A stretch of DNA of 42,514 nucleotides from a virus: the IMG/VR virus record IMGVR_UViG_3300034101_004053, positions 1-42,514 of that record; one strand, written 5' to 3'. Of this stretch, positions 10,216 through 36,885 are shown piece after piece. The notes below the pieces were generated by a model. The model ran no database searches and was not told the DNA's origin. It was given only the letters and a program-made list of their open reading frames with translations. Both the position numbers and the translations under genes were made by a program. How positions within the stretch are numbered: position 1 is the stretch's first letter; the number at the start of each line of letters is the position of its first letter.

Positions 10216-11646
10216 ATGTTCCTTAGTTACCTTACACTGGCAGTAGCACTGAGCCTGTCAGTCATTGCCGCCTACTACAGTATTGCAGGTCTTACTGCTG
10301 TTTTTGCCGCGGCTGTGATTCCTATCATTGTGATGGGCGGCATTCTTGAGATTGGCAAAGTAGTGGTCACACTGTGGCTGCATGAGTACTGGAGTCGTTG
10401 CCGTTGGTTGATGAGACTGTATTTGGTACCTGCAGTGGCAGTACTGATGTTGATTACCAGCATGGGCATCTTTGGCTTCTTGAGCAAAGCACATTCGGAC
10501 CAAAGCTTGGTAGGCGGCGATGTACAGGCCAAGATTGCAGTCTACGACGAAAAGATCAAAACAGCAAAGGACAATATAGATGCAAACCGTAAGGCGCTTA
10601 AACAGATGGATGAGGCTGTGGACCAGGTCATGGCAAGAAGCAGTTCGGAAACGGGTGCTGACAAAGCAGTTGGACTACGACGCTCACAACAAAAAGAACG
10701 TGCCCGCCTTCAGTCTGAGATCCAAACCGAACAAAAAACAATTAGTAGTCTTAGCGAAGAACGTGCGCCAATTGCAGCCGAAGTACGCAAGGTTGAGGCC
10801 GAAGTAGGACCAATCAAATACATTGCCAAGTTGATCTACGGGGACAATCCTGATGCTAACTTGTTGGAAAAAGCAGTGACTTGGGTCATTATCATTATTG
10901 TTGCTGTGTTTGATCCACTGGCTATTATGATGCTGTTGGCAGCAACAGAGAGCATGAAGTGGGAACGGCAACGAGTGTTCGAACGGCTGGGATTGGCACC
11001 CAAGGACGAAGAACACAAACCTGAGTTAGATAAATCAGTGGTTCAGGATCCACACCCCACAGGTTGGATGTTCACGTCAAACAGCGAGTCAACGCCAGAA
11101 AAATCAATATTTGAACAGCATCCTTATCTGCTGAAGCCATTTACACATTTCAAAGATCTGGTGCCCATGGTTCACAAACCTGAACCTACAGAGGAATCTG
11201 AATCAACTGATGAAGAAATACACAACGAAACACCTGCAGTAAAAGCTGCAATAAAATTGTGGAAAGAACAAAATCCCAACAAAACCATCAAAGACCAACG
11301 CACCAAGTTGTCTCGAGGCGAAATAGCAGAACTGCCGTGGTTGGCTTTGGCAGCCGACAACGAAATGCCCAGAGAGCCAAAGTCGGGATTTGGGTCAGAA
11401 TTTCCAATGGACGCTGCCAAAGGCGATTCATTTGTGAGAGTGGATCGATTGCCAAACGAGGTATACAAGCACAACGGAAATGTCTGGATTTTAGTTGACA
11501 AATCACGAACAGATAACTATACTTACAACACAGCCTATATTGATCATTTGATATCAAAGATTGATACTGGTGAATACGACATTGATCTGCTGAGCGACAA
11601 TGAGCGTGAGCAAATTTCACAACGTCTACAAACCAAAAATACATGA
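10216..11646 (+). CDS. Membrane protein with periplasmic or cytoplasmic coiled coil
   Basis: The 476-residue product has hydrophobic segments at about residues 5-25, 29-50 and 68-92, a long charged coiled coil at about 100-205 and another membrane segment at about 218-244 (VTWVIIIIVAVFDPLAIMMLL). A hydrophilic C-terminal half rich in Glu, Ser and Pro follows. I recall proteins of this layout in marine T4-like phages, with no known role. It overlaps clpX by ATGA, so it may be expressed with the protease genes. Confidence 0.8.
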   Translation: MFLSYLTLAVALSLSVIAAYYSIAGLTAVFAAAVIPIIVMGGILEIGKVVVTLWLHEYWSRCRWLMRLYLVPAVAVLMLITSMGIFGFLSKAHSDQSLVGGDVQAKIAVYDEKIKTAKDNIDANRKALKQMDEAVDQVMARSSSETGADKAVGLRRSQQKERARLQSEIQTEQKTISSLSEERAPIAAEVRKVEAEVGPIKYIAKLIYGDNPDANLLEKAVTWVIIIIVAVFDPLAIMMLLAATESMKWERQRVFERLGLAPKDEEHKPELDKSVVQDPHPTGWMFTSNSESTPEKSIFEQHPYLLKPFTHFKDLVPMVHKPEPTEESESTDEEIHNETPAVKAAIKLWKEQNPNKTIKDQRTKLSRGEIAELPWLALAADNEMPREPKSGFGSEFPMDAAKGDSFVRVDRLPNEVYKHNGNVWILVDKSRTDNYTYNTAYIDHLISKIDTGEYDIDLLSDNEREQISQRLQTKNT

Positions 11647-12851
11647 AACAAACTGAAACACTCGAAACCTGTAGCTTTTGCGGCAAACACAAAGATGCAG
11701 TGGCCAAATTGATTGTGGGCGCAGACGTTGCTATATGCAACGAATGTGTTGACCTTTGTGAGAATCTTCTCAAAGATGAAGATGTTAGCATTGCAAAACC
11801 AGTTACACCTACCTTGGATCCTGTGGCTATCAAGGCGCATCTAGATCAATATGTGATTGGTCAAGACCTTGCCAAGCGTGTGTTGGCAGTGGCCATTGCC
11901 AACCACTACAAACGCATCAACAACACTGATAAAAATACTGAAATTGAAAAAGTCAACATTCTCATGCTTGGACCCACTGGTTCAGGCAAGACCTTGCTGG
12001 CACGAAGTGTGGCTCGATACCTAGATGTGCCGTTTGTGATTGCAGATGCCACTAGCCTGACTGAAGCCGGATACGTAGGTGATGATGTAGAAAGCTTGAT
12101 CAGTCGACTGTATGCTGCTGCCGAATACGATGTGAAAAAATGCGAACGTGGAATTGTGTTCTTGGACGAAGTTGACAAAATCAGTCGACGCAGTGAAAGT
12201 GCCAGCATTACCAGAGACGTGTCCGGCGAAGGTGTACAGCAGGCTCTGCTCAAGTTGGTGGAAGGTACCAAGTGTCGCATTGTGCCACAAGGCGGACGCA
12301 AACATCCATCAGGCGAAACTGTGGAGATTGATACCACCAACATCTTGTTTATTGCTGGCGGTGCATTTGTGGGCTTGGACAATTTGGTCAGAAATCGAAC
12401 CAGTGGTACCAGCATTGGGTTTAGCGGCCAAGTAAAATCCAAACAAGACAAACCCGACCTGGGTCAAGTCAATCCTGAGGATATCATCAAGTTTGGTATG
12501 ATTCCAGAATTTGTTGGTAGATTCCCCACATGGGTTGCGTTGGAAGAACTGACTCGTACAGATCTTATTGAAATCTTGATCAACATCAAGCACAGTTACA
12601 TCGAACAGTATCAGTGGTTGTTCCGTCAAGATCAAGTAGAACTGGAATTTTCTCGTGCTGCCTTGGAAACCATTGCAGACAACACCATGAAGAACAAAAC
12701 AGGTGCTCGAGGCCTGCACAGTGAACTTGAACGTGTGTTGATGCCGCACATGTACAGACTGTCTGAGTACGCTCGCAACGGAATTAACCGCGTAGAAATT
12801 GACGAGCACATGGTAAATACTCCCAGGGAGTTAAAACAGGTCAATGAATAA
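11643..12851 (+). CDS. clpX: ClpX unfoldase, phage-encoded
   Basis: This 402-residue AAA+ ATPase unfolds substrates and feeds them to ClpP. The N-terminal zinc-binding domain has Cys10, Cys13, Cys32 and Cys35. Walker A is GPTGSGKT (110-117), Walker B FLDE (173-176), and the pore loops GYVG (143-146) and RKH (219-221) are intact. The ClpP-docking IGF tripeptide is at 258-260, so it should bind a ClpP ring. The sensor-2 region GARGL is present. Length is slightly under the usual 415-430. Two ClpP-type genes (29599, 31929) and a ClpS gene (14546) lie in the same window. It is followed, with an 8-base overlap, by a bS21 gene. Confidence 0.97.
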   Translation: MKQTETLETCSFCGKHKDAVAKLIVGADVAICNECVDLCENLLKDEDVSIAKPVTPTLDPVAIKAHLDQYVIGQDLAKRVLAVAIANHYKRINNTDKNTEIEKVNILMLGPTGSGKTLLARSVARYLDVPFVIADATSLTEAGYVGDDVESLISRLYAAAEYDVKKCERGIVFLDEVDKISRRSESASITRDVSGEGVQQALLKLVEGTKCRIVPQGGRKHPSGETVEIDTTNILFIAGGAFVGLDNLVRNRTSGTSIGFSGQVKSKQDKPDLGQVNPEDIIKFGMIPEFVGRFPTWVALEELTRTDLIEILINIKHSYIEQYQWLFRQDQVELEFSRAALETIADNTMKNKTGARGLHSELERVLMPHMYRLSEYARNGINRVEIDEHMVNTPRELKQVNE

Positions 12852-15668: not shown

Positions 15669-16037
15669 ATGCACATTATATTTGGCGACGATGCTAAAAA
15701 ACTAGCAGACAAGTTCACTGTGTTGGAATTAGACACTGTTAAACTCAACGAAACAGATCAAAAAGTAACATCATACTGCATAGTGGAAAATATCCCGCTG
15801 GGAGACTTTCCGGTTGTGGATGCCTATGTAAAGGTACACCATGACATGATGCAGTCTTATCGAGATCAGAACTGGGACTATTGTGAGTCTGCAATCAAGG
15901 GACTAACTGGAAAATGGAACGGAGAACTTGATACTTTCTATCAAATCATGTTTGACCGTGTGAGCCTGTTGAGAACACAAACATTGGAACCCGGGTGGGA
16001 CGGCACAATTGAAAAATCTGTGTCACAGCCTGCTTAA
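15669..16037 (+). CDS. Small protein resembling the C-terminal tail of the phage adenylate cyclase
   Basis: The 122-residue product begins MHIIFGDDAKKLADKF. Its second half (about residues 63-115) lines up by eye with the last 55 residues of the cyclase encoded at 20117: a helical pair, then FYQIMFDRVSLLRTQTL and W-x-G, against YYEMWIERCEFQKTQTL and W-x-G. This segment follows the cyclase domain in many bacterial enzymes. The free-standing version might interact with the same partner. An AAAAGGA Shine-Dalgarno precedes the start. It diverges from the phosphoesterase gene with only 24 bases between. Confidence 0.68.
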   Translation: MHIIFGDDAKKLADKFTVLELDTVKLNETDQKVTSYCIVENIPLGDFPVVDAYVKVHHDMMQSYRDQNWDYCESAIKGLTGKWNGELDTFYQIMFDRVSLLRTQTLEPGWDGTIEKSVSQPA

Positions 16038-20116: not shown

Positions 20117-22159
20117 ATGCTTAAAAAAATTCTAACAAGTCCGTGGACAGCATTGGTTACACTGGCACTGGTATTGGGAGTAAGGATTGCAGATCCTGGC
20201 TTTGTGGAAAGTGTGAGACTGCGATATTTTGATACCTTGATCACTGGTCAGCCCGCTGTGCAAAACAACATACACACAGTGGACATAGATGAAGCAGCCC
20301 TGGAAAAATACGGACAATGGCCATTTCCACGTGATCAGTATGCCAGAATAATACAAGATCTCTACAGTAGAAATGCTGGCTTGGTGGTATTCAATGTGTT
20401 GATGCCTAACCCAGATCGTGCTGGCCAAGATGCAGCACTGGCTCGAGTTCTACGACAACACCCAGTGATACTGCCCAGTGTGCCCAGTGATCGCACACAG
20501 AATCAGCCGCGTGTGCCTGGCTCTGCTGTGATTGGTGCAGAATGGGCCGATTCAATTGTGCAGTATCCCGGTATGATTGCCAACGTACCTGTGCTGGAAA
20601 ATGCAGCCGCAGGTGTGGGCATTGTGGGAACCATGCCTGAAATTGACGGTGTGAATCGACGTGTGCCCTTGGTGGTCACTGTGGATGATCGCATCTATCC
20701 TGCATTGAGCCTGGAAGTATTGCGTGTGACAGCAGGAGACAACACTGTGCAGGTCAAGCTTGGTGAATTTGGTGTGGAAAAAATGCGTGTGCCTCAGTTT
20801 GGCCCTGTGACCACAGACAGTCTGGGCCGTGTCTGGATAGACTGGAGTCAACGCAGTCACAGTCACAGTCTTGTGAATTTACCACAGGACTTTGGCGGTG
20901 GTATTGTGATAGTGGGTCCCACTGCTGCCGGCATCGGTAATCCTGTGCCCACTGCTGTTGGTGCTGTGTTCCCGCATCAGTTGCAGGCCGCAGTGTCAGC
21001 GACCATGATCAATCAAGTGGTTATACAACGCCCTGCATATGCTGACTCTGCAGAAATTATAGCTGTGTTGCTGGCTAGTGTGTTGTTGTTGTTTTTGACA
21101 AGGTGGACTTATGTTGGACTTGCCTCAGTGGTTGTATTGGTCGGTGGCGGTGTTGCTGGCAGTATGTTTGCTTACAGCCATCTTTTATGGTTATTTGATG
21201 CTACTGCCTTTGCAGTTGGCACAACTTTGGTCGCTCTGCATGCCTATGGCGTCAAGTTTGTGAGTGAGTTCCTTCAGAAGCAAGCCATCAAGAAACAGTT
21301 TGCAGGCTATGCAAGTCCCACAGTGGTCCGACTGTTGCAGGAAAATCCAGACCTGATCAAGAAAGGCACCAAGCGTGAAGTCAGTATCTGCTTCTCAGAC
21401 TTGCGTGGTTTTACACCGCTAGGCGAAAGCTTTGGCGACGATGTAGGCGGACTCACTGAAGTCATGAACGGCTACATGGATGCTATCACACAGCCAGTGC
21501 TGGAAGCCAACGGCATGATCATCAAGTACATTGGTGATGCCAGCATGCACATACACAATGCTCCTATAGACGATCCTGATCATGCCAAGACTGCTGTAGC
21601 TGTAGGGCTAAAGATGGTCAAGGCTGTGAAAGAGTTCAGCAAACAACTGGAGGCCAAAGGTCGTCCAGGTGTCAAGATGGGCGCAGGTATCAACACTGGT
21701 CTGGGCTACATTGGCGAAATGGGTTCTACAGCACGTCACAGTTATGATGTATTGGGCGATGCTGTGAGCACAACAGCACGTATTGAAAGCAAGTGCAAAG
21801 AATACGGCTGTGTGTTGTTGGTAGGTGAAGAAACTGTTCGACGTTGTGGAGATGATTTTTTCTTTCTCAAGATCGACGATCTAGCAGTGAAAGGAAAGTC
21901 AGTGGGCGTAGGTATATGCACTGTGCTAGATGATGTCACTGAAGCATATTATCGAGCCAAGCTCACACACAACAAGATGCACGAACTGTATAGACTACAA
22001 AAATTCGATGCTGCTATTATCTTGTGTCAAGAACTCATGAACGAGTTTGATGGAAAAATGGCTGGCTATTACGAAATGTGGATTGAACGTTGCGAGTTCC
22101 AAAAGACACAGACACTACCGTCAGACTGGAACGGGGTTTTTATTGCTACGTCAAAGTGA
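20117..22159 (+). CDS. CHASE2-domain membrane adenylate cyclase
   Basis: The 680-residue protein has an N-terminal membrane anchor (about 9-24), a periplasmic CHASE2 sensor domain (about 30-305), three membrane segments (about 312-328, 332-352, 357-376) and a class III cyclase domain (about 415-605). The metal-binding Asp428 (CFSDLRGF) and Asp474 (YIGDA) are present, as are Lys470 and Asp544, the residues that select adenine. Arg555 is conserved, but the usual catalytic Asn of GDxVN is Ser551. A helical tail follows (see 15669). It would make cAMP in response to a periplasmic signal. ATG at 20117 is preferred over TTG three bases earlier. It converges with the desaturase gene, overlapping by 9 bases. 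Confidence 0.92.
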   Translation: MLKKILTSPWTALVTLALVLGVRIADPGFVESVRLRYFDTLITGQPAVQNNIHTVDIDEAALEKYGQWPFPRDQYARIIQDLYSRNAGLVVFNVLMPNPDRAGQDAALARVLRQHPVILPSVPSDRTQNQPRVPGSAVIGAEWADSIVQYPGMIANVPVLENAAAGVGIVGTMPEIDGVNRRVPLVVTVDDRIYPALSLEVLRVTAGDNTVQVKLGEFGVEKMRVPQFGPVTTDSLGRVWIDWSQRSHSHSLVNLPQDFGGGIVIVGPTAAGIGNPVPTAVGAVFPHQLQAAVSATMINQVVIQRPAYADSAEIIAVLLASVLLLFLTRWTYVGLASVVVLVGGGVAGSMFAYSHLLWLFDATAFAVGTTLVALHAYGVKFVSEFLQKQAIKKQFAGYASPTVVRLLQENPDLIKKGTKREVSICFSDLRGFTPLGESFGDDVGGLTEVMNGYMDAITQPVLEANGMIIKYIGDASMHIHNAPIDDPDHAKTAVAVGLKMVKAVKEFSKQLEAKGRPGVKMGAGINTGLGYIGEMGSTARHSYDVLGDAVSTTARIESKCKEYGCVLLVGEETVRRCGDDFFFLKIDDLAVKGKSVGVGICTVLDDVTEAYYRAKLTHNKMHELYRLQKFDAAIILCQELMNEFDGKMAGYYEMWIERCEFQKTQTLPSDWNGVFIATSK

Positions 22160-22858
22160 TCGAACGTGTGCCAGCCCAAATAGATTAAAAATTTTAAACC
22201 AGGCCCAGCCTAGATCAAATTCCCAACTTTGCTGACTCAGCTTGGGGCTGGCAGGTTGTGCATGGTGATTGTTGTGCAGTTCTTCTCCGCCTATAACAAT
22301 GCCCCAAGGCACAATGTTGGTGCTGTGATCCTTGGTATCAGTGTTGCGATACCCCCACCAATGTCCTAATCCATTTACCACACCTGCTGCCCAAAAAGGT
22401 ATCCAGGCCATTTGCACCAGCCACATCACAATACCCCAACCATGAAACAACCATACTTCCAAACACAGCAATGCAACAATGCCTAGTTTGCAGTGCGGAG
22501 CGTACAAGTTGCGTTCGATCCAGTCGGTGGGTGTACCTTTGCTGAAGTTGTTGACCATTTGTGTGTCTTTGCTGGCATCATTGTACAGCCAGGCGCCGTG
22601 CCATAACACGCGGCCAATGCCAAACACATGTGGGCTGTGTGGATCACCAGGCTTGTCTGTTGCACTGTGATGTTTGCGATGTATCGCTACCCACTGACTT
22701 GTGACCATTCCAGTTGTAAGCCATAACCAAGCTCGCATAAAATGTTCTAGCACAGGATGAAACACCATGCTTTTATGTGCCTGTCCACGATGTAGATACA
22801 GAGTAACGCACACAATGGTGATGTGCGTCATCACCAAAGTGATCAAAAGTTCTGTCAT
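22151..22858 (-). CDS. Acyl-CoA/acyl-lipid desaturase
   Basis: This 235-residue membrane di-iron enzyme has the three histidine boxes of the delta-9 family: HRGQAH (23-28), HRKHH (60-64) and HNNHH near the C-terminus. Hydrophobic segments lie between. It introduces a double bond into fatty acyl chains, changing membrane fluidity. It is shorter than bacterial desaturases (about 300-400), mainly at the ends. It is the last gene of the minus-strand envelope operon, only 3 bases after the holin-like gene. Fatty-acid desaturases also occur in some cyanophages and related phages. Confidence 0.92.
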   Translation of the reverse strand: MTELLITLVMTHITIVCVTLYLHRGQAHKSMVFHPVLEHFMRAWLWLTTGMVTSQWVAIHRKHHSATDKPGDPHSPHVFGIGRVLWHGAWLYNDASKDTQMVNNFSKGTPTDWIERNLYAPHCKLGIVALLCLEVWLFHGWGIVMWLVQMAWIPFWAAGVVNGLGHWWGYRNTDTKDHSTNIVPWGIVIGGEELHNNHHAQPASPKLSQQSWEFDLGWAWFKIFNLFGLAHVRSL

Positions 22859-22861
22859 TGA

Positions 22862-23218
22862 TTAACCTTCGCCTGCAGTAGCAGTTTTTTTGTCTTCGTC
22901 GTCGACTTTGCCTTGTATGGCTTTTTGGAATTTGTCACTGGCTTCGGTGTCTACTTTGACAGACTCTAGCACACGCTCGCTTTCTATGATCTTGCCACGC
23001 AGGTGCAGCACAGTGTTGACTTTTTGGTTGAGTCTGATCAAGTCGTTGTCCAGCATGCGTATACGATCAATCAGTGCTATCAAGGTAGCATTGGCTTCGC
23101 TCAGCACTGGCTTGATTTCTTTGGTGGCCCATTGCCACACGTAGAAAATCAAATATCCCATGCCCCCTGCGGCCACTATGGGAAACCCGTATTTGTTGAT
23201 TAATTCAGCTATGTCCAT
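22862..23218 (-). CDS. Holin-like small membrane protein (copy 2)
   Basis: The 118-residue product starts MDIAELINKYGFPIVAAGG, has one membrane helix (about 10-32), then a coiled coil with LIALIDRIRMLDNDLIRLNQKV and a charged tail. This layout matches small BhlA/YvrJ-like phage membrane proteins that are often called holins. The start at 23218 was chosen because the other copy (23416-23697) aligns from there; a frame from 23233 adds five residues. It overlaps the upstream gene by 14 bases. A role in membrane permeabilisation is possible, not shown. Confidence 0.75.
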   Translation of the reverse strand: MDIAELINKYGFPIVAAGGMGYLIFYVWQWATKEIKPVLSEANATLIALIDRIRMLDNDLIRLNQKVNTVLHLRGKIIESERVLESVKVDTEASDKFQKAIQGKVDDEDKKTATAGEG

Positions 23219-23435
23219 TTTGTGTTCTTTCATTCAGTGTCTGACCCATGGTAAATGCCACCAGTGGATCAATGCGTTCTAGTTGAGCACGACCGTCTAT
23301 GTTGACCAGTCGAAAAAAATCGCCAGCATTCCAGCCCAGCCTGTCAAGGTCGAGTTCTTCGTCCAGCACAATCCTGTCGTGACTTAGATCCCATGTATAA
23401 TCCAAGTACAGCACATTAGTCTCTTCTAGCGTCAT
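23205..23435 (-). CDS. Small acidic phage protein
   Basis: The 76-residue protein begins MTLEETNVLYLDYTWDLS and includes an acidic LDEELDLDRLGW segment. No known domain is evident. ATG at 23435 is preferred to a TTG seven codons earlier. It overlaps both neighbours (20 and 14 bases) and lies between the two holin-like genes, so it may be a regulator of them, as inhibitors often sit beside holins. Confidence 0.6.
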   Translation of the reverse strand: MTLEETNVLYLDYTWDLSHDRIVLDEELDLDRLGWNAGDFFRLVNIDGRAQLERIDPLVAFTMGQTLNERTQNGHS

Positions 23436-23697
23436 TTTTACCGTCTGCTCGTGCAATACGATCTACGTCTGGGCGCAGTCCCAGTGCATTGCTCACAATA
23501 GTGTCAATGCGAATCACGTCGTGGTTCATGGTTTTTACACGATTGTCCAGGGCACCAATAATGCCTTTGAGGCCGTTTACGGTGCTGGTTACACCAGCCA
23601 AGATAAACTTCAGTGTCAAAAACACAAAATACCCTGCGGCAATAGCTGATGCAATGGGAAATCCTACTTCAGCTACCAATTTAAAAAACTCACCCAT
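23416..23697 (-). CDS. Holin-like small membrane protein (copy 1)
   Basis: The 93-residue protein starts MGEFFKLVAEVGFPIASAIA, with a membrane helix at about 10-35 followed by a helix with LDNRVKTMNHDVIRIDTIV. The 'GFPI..a..GY' and 'r..mn.D.irid' signatures are shared with the copy at 22862, so the two are paralogues. AAGGAG sits six bases upstream of the ATG, a better initiation site than that of the other copy. A longer frame from 23832 runs into the FecR gene and is rejected. Confidence 0.78.
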   Translation of the reverse strand: MGEFFKLVAEVGFPIASAIAAGYFVFLTLKFILAGVTSTVNGLKGIIGALDNRVKTMNHDVIRIDTIVSNALGLRPDVDRIARADGKNDARRD

Positions 23698-23720: not shown

Positions 23721-24815
23721 TTACCGTTGTGTGATGTTGATTCGGGTGGTGCCGCCGTTGTTGACCTGCTGATACAGCATTACCCCTGCTTGATTGGCTT
23801 GTAATATAGCGTCTTGATCGCTGGGCATCCATATTTCAAATGCGTTGCCCAGATCCCTGCGCAGAATCAATCGATCTTCGTCGTCCAGATTCCATTTCAA
23901 CAAACTGGATGCTTGATACCCGGGCAATATCTGATTGGTGGCCAGTATGGACTCAGCACTGGATATCATGCTAGCAGTGTCCACGTCCAGTACACTGGCC
24001 AAGAAGTCACTGTCCAAGAAATTTTTGTCCAGTTGTCCCTTGGTGCTCAGCAGATCTTTGTTGAGCTCATCAAAATCCAAAAATTTCTGGTTCAGAAAAT
24101 TAACATCCAAACTGGTTTGGCTTCGTGTCTCAACTTCTTGTGTTTTGAGTTCAGTGGGAAATGACACAATCATAAGGTTGCTGATGTTGGCAGGATCTAT
24201 GTTGATTACCACAGGTGACTGCGGAGCAACGTCAACTGAACTCACAAAAGTGGCTTGGTATGCTGTGTCCATGGTCACTGATCCTGCGTTGTTGAAAACT
24301 TCAATCTTTCCAGTCACACACGATGTTGCATCACAACTGGGCAACAACATCACAATGCTGCGTCCCAATTCGTCTACGGTCATGGAAAAATCTGTGCCAC
24401 GAACTGCAATGGTGGCTGTGGGTGTTTTTACTGCTACCTGCTGTGGATTGCTTTTGGCAATCTGTCCCGACGCATACTTGGCAGTACCTAGGGCAACTTT
24501 GAGAGCCAATCTTCCAGTGCCACGATTGGCATCATACACAAAATCGTCGATCAGCAATTTGCTTTGTTCAGAGATTTTTACTGTGGTGTTGTCTTCAAAG
24601 GTCAGTTGAGCACGACTCCGTGCCGTCACAACTGTGTCATTCATTTCCACAGCCGTGTTTACTGCACTGGACACACTTTTTTTATCTCGTACAATTTCCA
24701 TGGGCCCAGTCTGTTCAGTGACTCGGCCCACCGCCGCATTAATCGGACTGTGTGATAGCAACAGTGTTGTTAGAACCAGCAGTAGAAGCAATGATTGTTT
24801 TTGCAAGTAGGCCAC
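23721..24815 (-). CDS. Exported FecR-domain protein
   Basis: The 364-residue protein has a Sec signal peptide (LLLLLVLTTLLLSHSPINA, cleavage near residue 27), then a FecR domain (VGRVTEQTGP to the TIAVRGTDFSM segment, about 28-150). The rest is beta-rich, with a repeated F-L-x-x-x-F-L pattern (about 235-275). FecR-domain proteins bind or sense periplasmic ligands and are often found near CHASE2 cyclases in bacteria. The start is a GTG inside the end of the curlin gene, 77 bases before that gene's stop; no downstream ATG keeps the signal peptide. Translation by re-initiation is likely. The exact start is uncertain. Confidence 0.8.
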   Translation of the reverse strand: MAYLQKQSLLLLLVLTTLLLSHSPINAAVGRVTEQTGPMEIVRDKKSVSSAVNTAVEMNDTVVTARSRAQLTFEDNTTVKISEQSKLLIDDFVYDANRGTGRLALKVALGTAKYASGQIAKSNPQQVAVKTPTATIAVRGTDFSMTVDELGRSIVMLLPSCDATSCVTGKIEVFNNAGSVTMDTAYQATFVSSVDVAPQSPVVINIDPANISNLMIVSFPTELKTQEVETRSQTSLDVNFLNQKFLDFDELNKDLLSTKGQLDKNFLDSDFLASVLDVDTASMISSAESILATNQILPGYQASSLLKWNLDDEDRLILRRDLGNAFEIWMPSDQDAILQANQAGVMLYQQVNNGGTTRINITQR

Positions 24816-25335
24816 TTTGTGTCATAGTAATTGTGTTGTTGCCGCCGTTCACTGTGTATTCCACTGTGCTAGCCCCGGTGTTGGTACTGGTGTGAGTCAC
24901 TGTGTTGGTATCGCCAGTGATCACCAGTTTGCTGCTGTGATTGGCACCGCTGCCCAGATTCTGTATCACAATATTGTCGTCACCTGTGATGGTCTGAATA
25001 ATGTCACTGCCGCTACATGTGGCCGATACTGATGTTCCACAGTTAACGGTCTTGACATTGTTGTTGCCATTGACTGTGAGAGTAACATTGGTAGCAGCAC
25101 CGTTGACCGTTAGAGCCAAATCGTTGGCTGCACCAATTTGTTGTATGTTCACAGTGTTGCTGCCACCTCCAATGAATATGGGCGCCAGTTCTGTGCCTAT
25201 TCGATTGTCTGCGCCATCCTGCAGAATTGTGATAGTGCTGCCGTTTCCTACCTGTTCCATGTATACTTTGTTTTGTGCTTGAGCAGCCCATGCAACTGCT
25301 AACAAAGTTCCAGCGGTTATTATTTTTTTTATCAT
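24739..25335 (-). CDS. Curlin-repeat amyloid-type protein (CsgA/CsgB-like)
   Basis: This 198-residue secreted protein has a signal peptide ending AQA (about residue 20) and then a chain rich in Asn, Gly, Thr, Gln, Val and Ile. Curlin-like units recur, such as VYMEQVGNGSTITILQDG, NTVNIQQIG and NTITMTQSG, with N-x-aliphatic-x-Q-x-G spacing. The last unit ends NNTVAITQSD. The repeats are looser than in E. coli CsgA. It is translated from a GGAGGT Shine-Dalgarno and overlaps the csgG stop (ATGA). It is the probable substrate of the CsgG pore next to it. Confidence 0.82.
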   Translation of the reverse strand: MIKKIITAGTLLAVAWAAQAQNKVYMEQVGNGSTITILQDGADNRIGTELAPIFIGGGSNTVNIQQIGAANDLALTVNGAATNVTLTVNGNNNVKTVNCGTSVSATCSGSDIIQTITGDDNIVIQNLGSGANHSSKLVITGDTNTVTHTSTNTGASTVEYTVNGGNNTITMTQSGLLAKTIIASTAGSNNTVAITQSD

Positions 25336-26123
25336 TTGGAACCTCCTTGTTTGAAAGACCAAAGGCCTTTTCGTTCCCCTTCTTGTATCATCTCATATAC
25401 AGATTGCTCCACAGCAAGTCTAATAGCATATGTGGTAGGCTCATTGACTGCTACTCCAGCCTCTAACTCTACAGATCGTGTTCCGTCGGCTATGAATCTC
25501 ATCACACCAGTGTTGAATGCAGTACTGTACACAGTCTTGCTCACGCTGTTGCTGATCAGAATCTCGCCGGTGTTGACCGAGATCACACGCAGAGCCACAA
25601 CAATTTCGTCCACACGATATTGCTTGCTTGCACCAATTCCCAGTATCCTGGCCCCGTGACCCCCAGATTTGGTATTGGCGTCAAATCCTATGATGCCACC
25701 TTCGATTATGAGCCCGGCCACAATCATGGGCCGTAATGGTTTGGCATCCTTGCCTTCGTATACTTCACGCTGATTGCGTATGAGCTGACGTTCCTTGATC
25801 AAGTTGTCAAGACCCACTCGCTCTACCACAGTAAACCAACGTCCTGCATCCTGCAAGGCCTTGATCAAGAATACTTCAGATCCCTGTGTCACAGCAGTGG
25901 AAAAACTGGCCAGGCGTTCGTTGGATTTTTTCTGTCCTGTTTTGTCTTGAAATCCATACACTGCCACAGTGATCGGTGGACCACTGGGTTCAGGCAGATT
26001 TTTTTGCAAGAACGTGTTGTTCTTCATGCTCTGCGGAGGCTCATACTCAACGTCGTCTCTGAAGTCAGCATCAAACGCACAACCTGACATCAACACTGCC
26101 ACAATCACAATCCATTTTTTCAA
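25332..26123 (-). CDS. csgG: CsgG outer-membrane curli secretion pore
   Basis: The 263-residue lipoprotein has a signal peptide with lipobox LMSGC (lipidated Cys15). The body matches CsgG: VAVYGFQDKTGQKK, then ALQDAGRWFTVVERVGL, NLIKERQLIRNQR and the stretch of strands ending in VRFIADG-type segments and a Tyr/Glu-rich C-terminus. CsgG forms a nonameric pore in the outer membrane that exports curlin. The start is TTG, overlapping the csgF stop as TTGA, with GGGAG nine bases upstream. No in-frame ATG lies near. Length is close to E. coli CsgG (277). Confidence 0.95.
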   Translation of the reverse strand: MKKWIVIVAVLMSGCAFDADFRDDVEYEPPQSMKNNTFLQKNLPEPSGPPITVAVYGFQDKTGQKKSNERLASFSTAVTQGSEVFLIKALQDAGRWFTVVERVGLDNLIKERQLIRNQREVYEGKDAKPLRPMIVAGLIIEGGIIGFDANTKSGGHGARILGIGASKQYRVDEIVVALRVISVNTGEILISNSVSKTVYSTAFNTGVMRFIADGTRSVELEAGVAVNEPTTYAIRLAVEQSVYEMIQEGERKGLWSFKQGGSK

Positions 26124-26560
26124 AATGCAAAACTCCCGATAGGCACAGTGATTTCAGTTCTGCTGCCATTGGCTTCTAGTATTACAAGAGTGACACTGGT
26201 TCCTGTCTTGAACCAACTAATAGAACTGCCTTGAAAGTCCAAGGTTCCTGAATCTCCTGCAGTCTCAGAAAACATAGCATCGGCTAGTTGTTTGCTGAGT
26301 TGTGCATAGATACGACTTTCCAGATTCACAATAAATTTGGACAAGGTGGTATTCTTGGCGTCTCGTTCTGCACGATCGGTCACAGATTTTGCTTCGTCGC
26401 GAAGCTTTTGCTTGCGACTGTCTTCCAGTTGTTTGATGGTCAGAACATGGCTCGAGAAACCTATTCCACTAAAACTGGGTGATGCAAACTGAAATGTCAG
26501 TTCACTGGCGTTGGCTCCCTGGGCTAAGATCAGACCGCATATTGCTATAATTTTTTTCAT
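26120..26560 (-). CDS. csgF: CsgF-like curli accessory protein
   Basis: The 146-residue exported protein has a signal peptide ending ANAS, followed by LTFQFASPSFSG, which matches the conserved N-terminus of CsgF (TFQFxNPxFGG in E. coli). That segment inserts into the CsgG pore and forms its second constriction. A helical middle and a C-terminal sheet (LDFQGSSISW, then TVPIGSFAF) follow. It is first in the operon csgF, csgG, curlin, FecR. The promoter ends only 11 bases before the ATG, so the leader is very short. No csgE or csgD is visible. Confidence 0.88.
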   Translation of the reverse strand: MKKIIAICGLILAQGANASELTFQFASPSFSGIGFSSHVLTIKQLEDSRKQKLRDEAKSVTDRAERDAKNTTLSKFIVNLESRIYAQLSKQLADAMFSETAGDSGTLDFQGSSISWFKTGTSVTLVILEANGSRTEITVPIGSFAF

Positions 26561-26564
26561 GCGA

Positions 26565-26597
26565 AAACCCCACTATAATATATTTATAGCAGGGTTT
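26565..26597. repeat. Imperfect palindrome over the csgF promoter
   Basis: AAACCC (26565-26570) pairs with GGGTTT (26592-26597) and CTATAA (26573-26578) with TTATAG (26584-26589), with two-base mismatched joints on both sides and a 5-base centre. The symmetry suggests a repressor operator, or a hairpin shared by both strands. Confidence 0.5.
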
Positions 26598-26600
26598 CAA
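26572..26600 (-). promoter_or_regulatory. Promoter of the csgF-csgG operon
   Basis: On the minus strand, TTGAAA (26595-26600) and TATAGT (26572-26577) are 17 bp apart. Transcription would begin around 26565, almost at the csgF ATG. It lies inside a long imperfect palindrome. Confidence 0.6.
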
Positions 26601-26617
26601 AAATAATCCAGGTGTTT

Positions 26618-27855: not shown

Positions 27856-28533
27856 ATGAAACGTTTTGCAACAATCGCGGCTGCCGTGGCAGTATTGACT
27901 TTGACTGCATGCAGTTCAACCAACAAGGTCGAAGGTTCTCCGGGCGTGACTCCTGGACCTCAGTCAGCTATCAGTGAACAACTGGCTGTGAGTGATTTCA
28001 AACGCCGTGGTATTCGTGTTGTGTATAGTTTGTCCGGCAAACTGGAAGCTATTGAAACTGTGGGCTATGCTCCTATTTGGGGCCGCAGTCAGAACTCTGT
28101 GCGTGAGGCATACCGTGTGGCCGAACTGGAAGCCAAGAAAGGTCTCAACGACTTTATCAATCAAGAAGTAATCAATTCAGAAACTTCGGTGACCATGATC
28201 AGTCGCAACATTGAACGAGCACGTGACAACAAGGTCAACGACTTTGCTACCAACCGCAGTCGGGACGTTGTGAGTTCAGAAGAAACTGATGAGAAACCGC
28301 AGGACGATCGCAACTTCAATCGTGAAGCCAACACTGCCACCCGCAACGATGCACTCAGTATTGTCAGCGTGGTCAACAACACCATCCGCACTCGCAACCA
28401 AGGTATCTTGGGCGGCCTGTATCTTGTGGAAGGTGATGTAGTAGATGGCGGCCGTGTGGTGCGTGTGGTGTATCGTTGGGATGAAAAGCACAACCGACAG
28501 CGTGGTCATATCCGTCAACAAATGATGCAATAA
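27856..28533 (+). CDS. LPP20/FlgP-like outer-membrane lipoprotein
   Basis: The 225-residue protein has a lipoprotein signal with lipobox LTAC (lipidated Cys19). The following domain (about 45-210: VSDFKRRGIRVVY, then AYRVAELEAKKGLNDFINQ) resembles the LPP20 family, which includes Vibrio FlgP of the flagellar outer-membrane ring. A poorly conserved charged insert lies in the middle. AAGGA precedes the start. It is followed two bases later by the FlgT-like gene, so the pair is likely co-expressed and may act together in the outer membrane. Confidence 0.78.
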   Translation: MKRFATIAAAVAVLTLTACSSTNKVEGSPGVTPGPQSAISEQLAVSDFKRRGIRVVYSLSGKLEAIETVGYAPIWGRSQNSVREAYRVAELEAKKGLNDFINQEVINSETSVTMISRNIERARDNKVNDFATNRSRDVVSSEETDEKPQDDRNFNREANTATRNDALSIVSVVNNTIRTRNQGILGGLYLVEGDVVDGGRVVRVVYRWDEKHNRQRGHIRQQMMQ

Positions 28534-28534
28534 C

Positions 28535-29587
28535 ATGCGCCGCACCGTTGCTGTTCTTGCTCTGGCGCTGGCCACCACACTGGCCCAGGCACAATCATTC
28601 AGCGCCATTGGTACTGCACTCACAGTGGGACAATGGATTTCTTTGAACACCAAACGTGTTTACTACATTGAAGTTGACAGTCGAGGCGACACATTTGAGG
28701 ATGCAAAAAACGAAGCGTTCAGACTGGCCATTGAACAAGCTGTGGGCACATTGATTCTCAGCGAAACTGAAGCACAGAACTATCGCTTGAAACGCAACGA
28801 CATTGTGACCTATGCGTCGGGCTATGTAGATCGATTTGAAATTACAGATCGTAACCAACTGGCAGGGCAAACTCGTTTGCGTGTTCGGGTATGGGTGGCT
28901 CACAGTGCCATTGCAGGCCGACTGCTACACCAACAGGCCGAACCACGTGAAATCAGCGGCAATACCATTGCCACACAAATACAGTCGTTTCAACAACAGC
29001 AACAGTCCGGGGATCGTTTGTTGAGCACTGTGTTGCAGGATTTCCCTCATCGTGCATTTGATGTCATAATGGAGCCTGCTAGAGTGATTGTAGACTCTCA
29101 TCGTCAAGGGCACCTACAGGTACCTTTTGTAGTGGGCTGGAGCAAAACCTACACCAAGGCCATGGAAGAAACCTTGCACAACATCAATCAGTATCCGCAA
29201 TGCACTAGCATAGGTGCCGATTGTACCAGAGTACGCAGTCGTATTGAACTGGACGTAAATCTGGTCAGCCGAGACCCAGGAGCGTGGTTTAACGATGACA
29301 CTGCCTGGAATCTGGCCATGAACGCCATGACTGCAGATCGCCCAGTGTATCGTATGACACTGAGCACTGTGAGTGGTAGAAAATTAACTTATTGTTACAA
29401 TGCCAGTGAGCTTGTGGATGGGTTTGATTATAGACCCAGATATTTTGCCAACATTGGCCCAGGATTGATCCGAATCAACGGACACAATCGCGAACGTGTG
29501 GTATTAACTGTGCCGTTAACTCAACTGCCTGTGCAAGACGTTACTCAGGCAACAGTGGATATTGTGCGTCAAACCAACTGCAAGTAG
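28535..29587 (+). CDS. FlgT-like periplasmic protein
   Basis: The 350-residue protein has a signal peptide (RRTVAVLALALATTLAQA, cleavage near residue 20) and, at about 40-135, the pattern EAFRLAIEQAVGTLILSETEAQNY...IVTYASGYVDRF, characteristic of the FlgT N-terminal domain. The rest is not assigned. FlgT and FlgP build rings around the Vibrio flagellar motor in the periplasm and outer membrane. A phage copy next to an LPP20-type lipoprotein and 2 kb from CsgG suggests a ring or pore assembly. Flagellar modification is an alternative. Confidence 0.75.
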   Translation: MRRTVAVLALALATTLAQAQSFSAIGTALTVGQWISLNTKRVYYIEVDSRGDTFEDAKNEAFRLAIEQAVGTLILSETEAQNYRLKRNDIVTYASGYVDRFEITDRNQLAGQTRLRVRVWVAHSAIAGRLLHQQAEPREISGNTIATQIQSFQQQQQSGDRLLSTVLQDFPHRAFDVIMEPARVIVDSHRQGHLQVPFVVGWSKTYTKAMEETLHNINQYPQCTSIGADCTRVRSRIELDVNLVSRDPGAWFNDDTAWNLAMNAMTADRPVYRMTLSTVSGRKLTYCYNASELVDGFDYRPRYFANIGPGLIRINGHNRERVVLTVPLTQLPVQDVTQATVDIVRQTNCK

Positions 29588-29598
29588 CTATAAATACC

Positions 29599-30183
29599 AT
29601 GCAAAATCCCAACATGAATACAGAACTAGACACAACCACATCACATACCCAAACCTTGGCCGATAACGGTATGTATGTTTTCATGGGCGAAGTTGACCAT
29701 GAAAACATCAAACCCATAATTGAATGGATTTTGCACGAGAACTTTGTGTCCAAGAGAAAACGCAAAGAACTCTTGTTGATGATCTGTAGCGAAGGTGGGG
29801 ACATGAGTGCCGCATTTGCCTTGATTGACGTAATGCGGAGTTCCAACATATTCATCAAAACAGTAGGGCTGGGCCAGATTGCATCAGCAGGGCTGTTGAT
29901 CTTTTTGGCAGGATCTCCTGGACGCAGAACACTAACGCCCAACACTTCAATCATGAGTCATCAGTATGCCTGGGGCAATGATGGCAAGCATCATGAACTG
30001 CTGGCCACAATTAGAGAATTTGAACTCACACAAAAACGCATGGTCAATCACTATGTGACATGCACTGGTCTAAGTGAAGAAGACATCAAGCAACACCTGT
30101 TGCCACCACATGATGTTTATTTGAGTGCAGACGATGCCCTGCGCTTGGGCATTTGTGATCATATCAGCCAACTGGCTCGTTAA
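29599..30183 (+). CDS. ClpP-like serine protease (divergent)
   Basis: The 194-residue protein has a complete ClpP triad: Ser96 in GQIASAG, His121 in MSHQ and Asp172 in HDVYLS, with 25 residues between Ser and His as in E. coli. It lacks the usual N-terminal segment ([22 protein letters not shown]) that forms the axial gate and part of the ClpX contact. It may therefore be a partner subunit, a free peptidase, or gated differently. No clear Shine-Dalgarno is seen; a start at 29614 is also possible. It converges with the following gene, overlapping by 4 bases. Confidence 0.88.
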   Translation: MQNPNMNTELDTTTSHTQTLADNGMYVFMGEVDHENIKPIIEWILHENFVSKRKRKELLLMICSEGGDMSAAFALIDVMRSSNIFIKTVGLGQIASAGLLIFLAGSPGRRTLTPNTSIMSHQYAWGNDGKHHELLATIREFELTQKRMVNHYVTCTGLSEEDIKQHLLPPHDVYLSADDALRLGICDHISQLAR

Positions 30184-31874: not shown

Positions 31875-31902
31875 TGTGGGTTCCAAAAAAATATGTTATA
31901 CT
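31874..31902 (+). promoter_or_regulatory. clpP promoter
   Basis: TTGTGG, 17 bp, TATACT, with a leader of about 20 bases before the ATG. Confidence 0.55.
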
Positions 31903-31928
31903 TACTTATCATTAACACAAGGAACTCT

Positions 31929-32552
31929 ATGCCAAATTTGGTACCAATCGTACTCGAACAAACTTCAAAAGGTGAACGCAGTTATGACATCTACAGTCGT
32001 TTGCTGAAAGATCGAGTGATCATGCTGGACACAGAAGTATCTGAACACACAGCCAGTCTCATAGTGGCGCAAATGCTGTTTTTGGAAAGTGATAACCCCG
32101 ACAAAGATATTTCGCTATATATAAACAGCCCAGGCGGCATTGTGACCGCAGGCCTGGCCATATACGATACCATGCAATTTATCAAGTGCGACGTTCAAAC
32201 CATTGTGATGGGCCAAGCTGCCAGCATGGGCTCTATGTTGGCTCAAGCAGGTGCACCGGGCAAGCGTTGGGTACTGCCCGAAAGCCGTACCATGATTCAC
32301 CGTGTGAGTTCAGGCACTCCGGGCACTCGCGGTAGTGTGCACGTTCAAGATCTGCAGTTTGAAGATTCAAAACGCAGTTTTGAAGAAAGTGTACGTATCA
32401 ACAAGCGCCTAACTGAACTGTATGTCAAGCACAACACAGCAGGCAAGACCTATGAAGAACTGTATGAAACCATGAAGTTTGACACGTTTTTGAGTGCTGA
32501 ACAAGCAGTGGCGTTTGGCCTGGCTGATCGGATTGTGGACAAACGTGTTTAA
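31929..32552 (+). CDS. clpP: ClpP protease subunit
   Basis: This 207-residue serine protease has the full N-terminal gate ([20 protein letters not shown]) and triad Ser99 (GQAASMG), His124 (MIHR) and Asp185 (FDTFLSA). The stretch between His and Asp is about 12 residues longer than in E. coli, giving a larger handle helix region. It is expected to form a tetradecamer and be opened by ClpX, encoded at 11643. AAGGA precedes the start at 31929; an upstream frame from 31893 begins before the transcription start. It shares one base with the next gene (TAATG). Confidence 0.94.
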
Positions 32553-36359: not shown

Positions 36360-36791
36360 TTACTTGTAAATGTAGTTTACAGTGGTAGAATTTTCACGGT
36401 AAATCCCAGCACCATTCTTCAAATGGAAACGTCGGGCCATCTCGGTCTTGGGGCTCAAGGTCACGTAGGTTTCAATGTTGGGAAACTCTGCCTGAATTGA
36501 CTTCTGTGCTTCCACAATCAGTTCGCGTCCAGATCCTGCGGTATAACTCCAAATGGTATAAAATACCGCAGTTGTGGCACCACCGACCAAACCGACCAAG
36601 TCATCCACGGCCGCAGGAATCGAGCTCAAAAACTTAACGCAGGTCACTGCCTGTGTTTTGTCCCCGTCTTTGAGCATGTAAATTCTGCTGTTGGAGTTGA
36701 CTCGTTGAGTCACAGGAATTTCAGGGCGAACAGGGTCGTCCCGGATAATGATTTCTAATTCGTCAGTGATGGTAGTGATAGCTTGCAACAT
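36360..36791 (-). CDS. GNAT-like phage protein
   Basis: This 143-residue protein has a fold pattern of acetyltransferases: IYMLKDGDKTQAVTCVKFL strands, AVFYTIWSYTAGSGRELI, then a final TLSPKTEMARRFHLKNGA segment. The usual acetyl-CoA pyrophosphate loop is replaced by SGRELI, so activity is uncertain. Similar proteins occur in T4-like marine phages. The start at 36791 has a GGAGGG Shine-Dalgarno; a longer frame from 36866 is rejected. It converges with the SWIM gene. Confidence 0.75.
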   Translation of the reverse strand: MLQAITTITDELEIIIRDDPVRPEIPVTQRVNSNSRIYMLKDGDKTQAVTCVKFLSSIPAAVDDLVGLVGGATTAVFYTIWSYTAGSGRELIVEAQKSIQAEFPNIETYVTLSPKTEMARRFHLKNGAGIYRENSTTVNYIYK

Positions 36792-36835
36792 GTTACGCCC
36801 TCCATTTGCAACCTTATTTATATGTGCGTATATTA

Positions 36836-36863
36836 AAATTTTGTGACAATTGGCAAATTTTGT
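36836..36863. repeat. Direct repeat AAATTTTGT with 19-bp period
   Basis: AAATTTTGT occurs at 36836-36844 and 36855-36863. The spacing of about two helical turns would let a regulator bind both copies on one DNA face between the divergent genes. Confidence 0.4.
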
Positions 36864-36885
36864 CAAAATACTTGTCCAATAAGTG

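Follow-up and report, generated by a model that had tools for sequence, protein, structure and literature searches.

Curli-type secretion genes have already been described from phages. Phage modules have been reported with CsgF, CsgG, CsgA/B, FecR and adenylate cyclase (PMC9599517, 2022), pelagimyophages carry csgF, csgG and a curli-associated protein, all three missing from their freshwater relatives (PMC7029224), and csgGF has been named among the genes of sediment temperate viruses (PMC9636769). The annotated Pelagibacter phage isolate HTVC008M has a 'curlin minor subunit CsgB' beside csgG, and the Melnitz annotation names two proteins with curlin repeats as well as one FecR protein. The function of the phage curli module is debated, and sibling capture, nutrient import and lysis timing have been proposed. 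Here we analyse the IMG/VR virus record IMGVR_UViG_3300034101_004053 (42,514 nucleotides; "the window"), in which a sequence-only reading had recognised a phage-borne curli cassette at positions 23721-26560. The cassette is genuine and belongs to a type already known, the phage type VIII secretion system (T8SS), and the supposition that a substrate gene would go beyond known phage pairs is contradicted by HTVC008M, by Melnitz and by the modules of PMC9599517. What is new is its occurrence on very large T4-like contigs, a late promoter combined with a lock like that of T4 gene e, a redefinition of two small membrane proteins, S1 and S2 (the S proteins), and a bacterial sister operon. On balance we think it probable that a T4-like jumbo phage here carries a curli (type VIII secretion) module without CsgE, which is expressed late and secretes a curli-like amyloid; this reading is built on gene content, conservation, the late motif, a late sigma gene and the hairpin. 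The central features are as follows.

26561-26602, minus strand: operator of the csgF operon, a promoter and hairpin 5' of csgF with the late promoter core at 26581-26588
26120-26560, minus strand: csgF, secreted pore partner (Pfam CsgF 2.5e-15; phrog_35372 5.8e-48)
25332-26123, minus strand: csgG, outer-membrane lipoprotein pore (Pfam CsgG 1.4e-52; PDB CsgG structures 1.2e-49)
24739-25335, minus strand: curlin-repeat protein, candidate amyloid subunit (family profile and PDB curlin matches)
23721-24815, minus strand: FecR-domain protein, candidate anchor or nucleator (Pfam FecR 2.1e-12)

These four genes form a single minus-strand run with overlapping ends, and Pfam, the curlin family profile and the coordinates bear out the proposal of four genes in one operon; the Pfam CsgG match answers the profile check proposed for CsgG. 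The CsgG lipobox is LMSGC, all 18 CsgGs in the alignment have Gly14 and Cys15, and CsgF has a signal-peptide-like N-terminus followed by TFQFASPSF; a phmmer search of CsgF against the PDB matched no CsgF. The core was followed across 156 loci: the window itself, 73 loci retrieved with its CsgG (window-type; 9 of the 73 contigs are at least 200 kb), two phages with annotation, and 80 more loci, the best of 194 retrieved with the HTVC008M CsgG (HTVC008M-type, taken to include the two annotated isolates). The order CsgF/CsgG/curlin/FecR, which the sequence-only reading had proposed to look for in related genomes, recurs among them, with CsgG in 156, CsgF in 152, curlin in 145 and FecR in 128; contig ends truncate many loci. 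As had been supposed, csgE and csgD appear to be absent: none of 17 records searched has csgE, and none of 9 a LuxR-type (csgD-like) helix-turn-helix. By gene order and the nearby cyclase the locus belongs with the pelagiphage modules, and a lipobox-bearing CsgG, CsgF and a secreted curlin-repeat subunit place it in curli/type VIII secretion, of which the CsgE gate was not found; CsgE is not a defining trait of the phage kind, because the pelagiphage modules are without it too (PMC9599517). Median ratios of nonsynonymous to synonymous substitution (dN/dS), from 7 to 15 hand-chosen pairs per gene, are 0.13 for CsgF, 0.11 for CsgG, 0.12 for curlin (0.116 in full, 15 pairs), 0.10 for FecR, 0.15 for the cyclase, 0.05 for S1, the lowest, and 0.15 for S2, and the highest single values are 0.46 (S2) and 0.41 (CsgG). 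The seven measured genes are under purifying selection and the module is in use.

The window matches a 349,369-bp contig at 99.995% (20,273 nt compared), and this twin also encodes gp23, terminase and a gp55-like gene. Among 16 csgG contigs searched, T4-type gp23 was found in 8, terminase in 7 and either in 9, the twin having both; the occurrence of the module on T4-like contigs as long as 364 kb is added here. That the window could instead be bacterial DNA from a contig mis-called as virus is hardly credible: the CsgG trees do indicate a bacterial source, and one contig (L069), without S, groups with bacterial operons (support 92/70), but gp23 or terminase lies on those 9 of 16 contigs, the window's twin included, and annotated relatives exist in the isolates HTVC008M and Melnitz. 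Bacterial contamination of the window is ruled out by the capsid and terminase genes of the twin. Bacterial flanks would have spoken against a phage origin; according to the twin the flanks are phage. Gene families and the twin uphold the reading that a phage carries the curli cassette and, within it, a candidate amyloid substrate.

The motif TATAAATA occurs three times in the window against 0.51 expected, a number reached in 2 of 100 shuffles, and one copy (26581-26588) lies directly 5' of csgF on the same strand. In distinct HTVC008M-type regions it stands within 100 nt 5' of csgF in 50 of 53 (about 1 expected), its start lying exactly 13 nt from the csgF ATG in 40 of the 50, 14-17 nt in 9 and 28 nt in 1; by T4 geometry, a late promoter 13 nt from the ATG would yield leaderless messages. 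Ahead of the other genes the motif is found at 0 of 110 csgG, 0 of 143 curlin, 0 of 94 FecR, 29 of 162 S and 2 of 58 cyclase genes. In window-type loci, TAAATA lies within 60 nt 5' of csgF in 39 of 55. This motif, TAAATA, also lies ahead of 6 of the 12 open reading frames (ORFs) that make up the capsid region in the 349-kb contig, where 0.27 are expected. With T4 gp55 as query, a gp55-like gene was found on all 8 large csgG contigs (E 1e-5 to 1e-7; twin 1.1e-6), in HTVC008M (1e-21) and in Melnitz (1e-20), and none within the 42.5-kb window itself; for the one such protein from a large contig that was scanned beyond this, the match is to 'sigma factor for late transcription' (7e-72). In total, csgF has a predicted T4-type late promoter, and this suggests that the curli genes are switched on only late, at the end of infection. 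Late-promoter prediction failed in pelagimyophages (PMC7029224); for Melnitz 15 late promoters were predicted, none seen assigned to csgF in the available text, which is without figures (PMC9004378); and the word 'promoter' occurs nowhere in the main text of PMC9599517. Within the one paper collection covered, literature on csgF, late promoters and phage consisted of just PMC9004378, PMC7029224 and one E. coli paper, and none was found joining jumbo phage, curli and CsgG.

Other copies of the motif were also seen. On one locus contig (L075) it lies exactly 13 nt ahead of an ATG at 3190 and 4472, like the 40 HTVC008M-type csgF. In the window, an ORF at 36360-36866 (minus strand) has a copy at 36815-36822, about 24-31 nt ahead of its likely ATG (36791), and is a candidate further late gene. 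The window also holds ClpX (11643-12851) and, by eye, two ClpP ORFs (29599-30183 and 31893-32552), the first of them directly preceded by TATAAATA.

The late core of the window lies within a hairpin at about 26564-26598 (minimum free energy -17.5 kcal/mol, z-score -3.29, equalled by 1 of 200 shuffles), which has a 14-pair stem and whose 3' arm carries the GGGG ribosome-binding site of csgF. Mean folding z-scores upstream of window-type genes are -2.18 for csgF (29 of 55 below -2), -0.32 for csgG, 0.19 for FecR, -0.57 for S and -1.03 for the cyclase. Of 39 window-type csgF regions, 38 have 4 or more pairs closing around the motif. Enclosure is a weak sign alone, because HTVC008M-type regions without a stable fold show it too, and stem length was therefore taken as the criterion: a stem of at least 8 pairs surrounds the motif at 13 of 38 csgF, 0 of 20 S, 1 of 12 cyclase and 2 of 113 other motif-bearing genes. 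When arms were swapped between loci, the mean stem fell from 6.54 to 4.54 pairs, and the top of 200 trials was 5.15. In T4, a helix holds the ribosome site or start codon of genes e, soc, 49 and I-TevI, and the gene e messages from late promoters are without the 5' portion of the helix (PMC3014915). In the window and in about a third of its relatives, the predicted hairpin has the layout of this T4 lysozyme switch, with the late core inside a ribosome-site hairpin and a late sigma gene in the phage (349-kb twin). A 510-aa ORF at 15774-17318 of contig L320, in the 349-kb contig's capsid region, has a similar late-motif hairpin of 14 pairs.

The candidate substrate belongs to a clear family. Curlin_rpt is matched at E <= 0.1 by 41 of 42 aligned homologues (best 2.3e-9; the 42 were taken from 57 listed), and in a search of 177,635 PDB sequences (E <= 1) the family profile gave 2 matches, both curlins (8c50, 8.9e-8; 8enq CsgA, 0.011). 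The N-terminus is, by eye, signal-peptide-like (AQA|NK), so that the absence of a signal peptide, which would have counted against the proposed curlin-repeat protein, was not encountered. Cys 99 and Cys 107 are invariant in the 42 homologues; to our knowledge, E. coli CsgA is without these two Cys. AlphaFold2 models the protein as a regular all-beta monomeric solenoid (predicted local distance difference test, pLDDT, 88.2). Foldseek gave nothing at E <= 0.001 and no curlin structure among the matches listed; the best structural matches listed are SufB/SufD beta-helices (VIA Z 16.3, root-mean-square deviation (rmsd) 2.8, 169 aligned), and the model therefore supports a solenoid, not amyloid.

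The extent of 23721-26560 holds for the four genes and is too narrow for the locus: the run reaches 22151, and the convergent cyclase and the upstream promoter/hairpin belong to it as well. The additional genes are these.

23416-23697, minus strand: S1, 93 aa (phrog_18771 6.8e-34)
23205-23435, minus strand: m, small protein encoded between S1 and S2, perhaps MazE/AbrB-like
22862-23218, minus strand: S2, another small membrane protein, paralogous to S1 (phrog_18771 2.6e-31)
22151-22858, minus strand: fatty acid desaturase, accessory (Pfam FA_desaturase 5.7e-12)
20117-22159, plus strand, convergent to the operon: CHASE2 nucleotide cyclase (Pfam CHASE2 3.5e-37; Guanylate_cyc 1.7e-17)

An S protein occurs in 116 of the 156 loci, a cyclase match in 79 (some merely short relatives), an m homologue in 23 and a desaturase homologue in 10. 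The m protein of the window has no Pfam match; of three homologues scanned, two (L024 and L071) match MazE_antitoxin below the cut-off (7.5e-4 and 1.8e-3) and one (L013) does not match it. Divergent from csgF, at 27856-29587 (plus strand), lie two secreted-looking proteins, by eye lipoprotein-like and FlgT-like, with no Pfam match at E <= 0.01 and homologues in 3 of 156 loci.

S1 and S2 are about 90-120 aa long with a single hydrophobic stretch (by eye for S1), and S1 has a conserved coiled-coil-like region and a C-terminal DARRD. Exactly two S copies are present in 16 of 17 csgG records (window and twin counted separately), even when away from csgF; the exception is L069. S as query retrieved 79 new loci (from the best 80 of at least 581), of which 50 have csgG inside the locus; of the remaining 29, 25 end at a contig edge and the 4 full-length ones all carry csgG elsewhere on the contig. 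Among 50,697 phage records only 6 have S (two of HTVC008M, four Melnitz strains), and each of these carries the CsgG cassette. CsgG has a seventh match there, the unannotated 1.5-kb record OR851715.1 ('Salmonella phage S.Kent 1-2-1'), which encodes CsgG at 41% identity and is of doubtful origin. The profile that detects S in phages finds it in none of 12 curli-bearing bacterial genomes hand-picked from 80; S occurs in 1 of the best 80 (of at least 551) genome-collection CsgG loci, on L260, a 3,961-bp contig of a metagenome-assembled genome (MAG) that is probably phage. S1/S2 look like a phage-only addition to the module. They are unlikely to be general holins, being confined in annotated phages to cassette-bearing records.

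The published modules are said always to have one or two histidine kinases ahead (PMC9599517). The HTVC008M genes at that place include two 93-aa hypothetical proteins that belong to S. No HisKA/HATPase or other kinase domain is among the Pfam and NCBIfam matches (E <= 1) of 18 S proteins, which rules out S1/S2 as histidine kinases. Judged by position and number, S1/S2 are probably the published 'histidine kinase' genes, and the pair is a concrete target that this label would otherwise hide.

The FecR protein has a signal-peptide-like start and a C-terminal part of about 60 aa with a curlin-like ending. When hhalign compares this C-terminus with curlins, E is 4.1e-4 and the probability 35% (in the reverse direction 1.1e-3 and 20%), against an E of 0.22 for the N-terminus as control, and the curlin-like tail may be taken as a lead for an anchor or nucleator role. 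The FecR domain model, of middling quality (pLDDT 75.6; predicted template modelling score 0.45), resembles PupR-type signalling domains (Z 15.1, rmsd 2.7, 138 aligned). Its match to the 'Cell surface anchoring domain' of 5ix9, which we take to be an RTX-adhesin retention module, is under Z 8 (Z 7.2, rmsd 2.4, 73 aligned), so that the modelled likeness to a retention module would be a lead only. In the cyclase, D429, K471, D475 and R556 are invariant in 24 of 24 aligned sequences, and at position 552 the window and 5 more of the 24 have Ser in place of the usual Asn; these are presumably class III catalytic positions. TAAATA lies 10 nt 5' of the cyclase ATG. A phage-borne cAMP receptor was sought and a cNMP_binding domain found in 0 of 9 records, and any cyclic nucleotide made would therefore have to act through a receptor of the host or through a different type of phage receptor. 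Relatives of the end of the cyclase also occur on their own: at 15669-16037 (plus strand) of the window there is a short free-standing homologue, and homologues of about 100-135 aa lie 5' of csgF in L016, L018, L035, L037, L038, L040, L042, L059, L063 and L069.

From these features we infer timing, secretion, amyloid formation and purpose, and roles for FecR, the cyclase and S1/S2, as follows. With the late promoter core inside a hairpin that would mask the csgF ribosome site, early read-through messages would be left untranslated, and late messages, starting beyond the 5' arm, would be translated, like those of T4 gene e. An outer-membrane pore would then be formed by CsgG and CsgF, through which the curlin-repeat protein might be exported as fibre subunit, and the FecR protein with its curlin-like tail might stay behind in the envelope to anchor or nucleate the fibre. 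Sensing or tuning of the process may fall to the CHASE2 cyclase together with the S1/S2 pair, which is specific to phages. Around burst, amyloid on the late-infected cell could aggregate neighbours or block competing phages. The late promoter and lock at csgF indicate when the module acts, and together they make a late-phase role likelier than an infection-long one. A late surface amyloid is, as judged from these features, the most likely function; aggregation and exclusion are indistinguishable here. More tentatively, and as something short of probable, we suggest a burst-phase device in which a bacterial curli operon with a lysozyme-type lock, the phage-only S1/S2 and a FecR-curlin anchor would lay down amyloid before burst.

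Several results weigh against this account. The late timing is a prediction from sequence. Exact TATAAATA stands 5' of just 3 of 57 window-type csgF, gp23 of the 349-kb contig is itself without the late motif, and the motif is missing at 16 of 55 window-type csgF, 4 of them without S upstream. The other 12 fit the account: S genes lie directly 5' of csgF, which is thus not first, at these 12 of 16 motif-less versus 0 of 39 motif-bearing csgF (Fisher 4e-9, with rows that are not independent by descent). The curlin upstream region also folds beyond shuffles (mean z -1.23, 17 of 57 below -2), HTVC008M-type csgF has no stable hairpin (mean z -0.26, 5 of 49 below -2) and yet has the motif inside at least 4 pairs in 36 of 48 regions, and the stem is shorter than 8 pairs at 25 of 38 motif-bearing csgF. 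RNAalifold gave no common structure for 22 of 39 anchored sequences, in our reading because stems shift register; arm swapping and the comparison with other genes took the place of a consensus fold. Taken alone, the window's own curlin stays under the Pfam threshold of 20.7 bits, its two Curlin_rpt matches scoring 16.1 bits (E 0.011) and 15.5 bits (E 0.017); the family profile settles the claim of curlin repeats. The FecR tail gives no Pfam Curlin_rpt match in 55 of 55 proteins. Finally, Melnitz cultures showed no clumping (PMC9004378), which counts against aggregation in Melnitz.

The same late motif and gene-e-like lock at csgF would also suit a lysis or release device, in which the CsgG/CsgF pore is served by S1/S2 as holin-like inner-membrane partners and curlin is secondary. 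A pinholin or secretin role has been proposed for CsgG/CsgF (PMC9004378), and S gives weak holin-like scores (phrog_4898 holin 6e-4 for the window S2; YvrJ in 3 of 18, best 0.0041). The unrelated TM140, however, scores S as well as YvrJ does (3 of 18, best 0.0017), curlin and FecR genes are kept beside csgFG under purifying selection, and S is missing from the bacterial sister operons. Moreover, CsgG is an established outer-membrane pore, and such a pore does not on its own release endolysin. We regard a lysis device as unlikely.

Rather less likely still is superinfection exclusion by an exported curlin that blocks receptors as a solenoid, either soluble or short and at the surface, and not as an amyloid. 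The confident monomeric AlphaFold2 solenoid and the two invariant Cys speak for it, but the repeat family is shared with amyloid curlins and CsgF, which in E. coli helps to nucleate fibres at the cell surface, is kept in nearly all loci. PMC7029224 and PMC9599517 raise the idea that CsgG is an ungated pore through which nutrients enter for phage production. This would fit the absence of csgE from the records searched, but the late motif places expression at the end of the cycle, and curlin and the FecR protein are unneeded for import, which makes this reading very improbable.

An alphaproteobacterial source of the phage modules has already been proposed (PMC9599517), and we add to this a bacterial operon of the same order without S1/S2. 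Our CsgG tree has 108 rows (29 phage, 2 phage-like MAG contigs, 3 bacterial operons with FecR and a CHASE2 cyclase, and 74 other bacterial), with 79 genome-collection CsgGs from the best 80 of at least 551 loci. A branch with support 100/98 separates all 29 phage CsgGs, the 2 phage-like MAG contigs and the 3 bacterial operons from the 74 others. These sister operons are L246 and L248, from Caulobacteraceae MAGs with near-identical CsgG, and L277, from a Hyphomonas MAG. They are the only ones of the best 80 genome-collection CsgG loci with FecR and cyclase together. By this tree, the Caulobacteraceae/Hyphomonas operons are the nearest among the 79 genome-collection CsgGs, and they offer a tractable system for the FecR-cyclase-curlin link. 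L240, L241 and L260, which resemble phage curli loci, are short contigs assigned to MAGs of Pelagibacter, Pirellulales and Flavobacteriales; phage-like curli contigs inside bacterial bins call for caution in host claims.

Compared with known systems, the window shares CsgG, CsgF and curlin repeats with E. coli csgBAC/csgDEFG and differs in its single curlin gene, in the extra FecR, cyclase and S1/S2 genes and in that no csgE or csgD-like helix-turn-helix was found. As in T4 gene e (PMC3014915), the ribosome site is predicted to be sequestered and the late promoter core is placed to skip the 5' strand; unlike gene e, the csgF switch predicted from sequence would govern a secretion operon and not lysozyme. 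A Burkholderia operon, tied to biofilm formation, likewise has a secreted FecR/LysM protein adjoining a CHASE2 sensor, with a histidine kinase in place of the cyclase and no curli genes (PMC5192318). The Caulobacteraceae/Hyphomonas operons have the same F-G-curlin-FecR-cyclase core in the same order, with two curlins in Caulobacteraceae, and differ in lying on bacterial contigs with no S1/S2 found in locus or genome. Melnitz, a Methylophilales phage, has the same annotated gene set with two curlin repeat proteins in a different order, and its description states that csgA/csgB are lacking and that CsgG/CsgF are a lysis regulator (PMC9004378). Of the same kind are the pelagiphage modules (HTVC008M and HTVC023P-type; PMC9599517, PMC7029224), which also combine CsgF, CsgG, curlin, FecR and cyclase without csgE, HTVC008M having two S genes as well, placed 5' of csgF. 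From these the window differs in its much larger phage, in S1-m-S2 following FecR, in the convergent cyclase, in one curlin and not two, in the desaturase that follows and in the late promoter inside a predicted ribosome-site hairpin.

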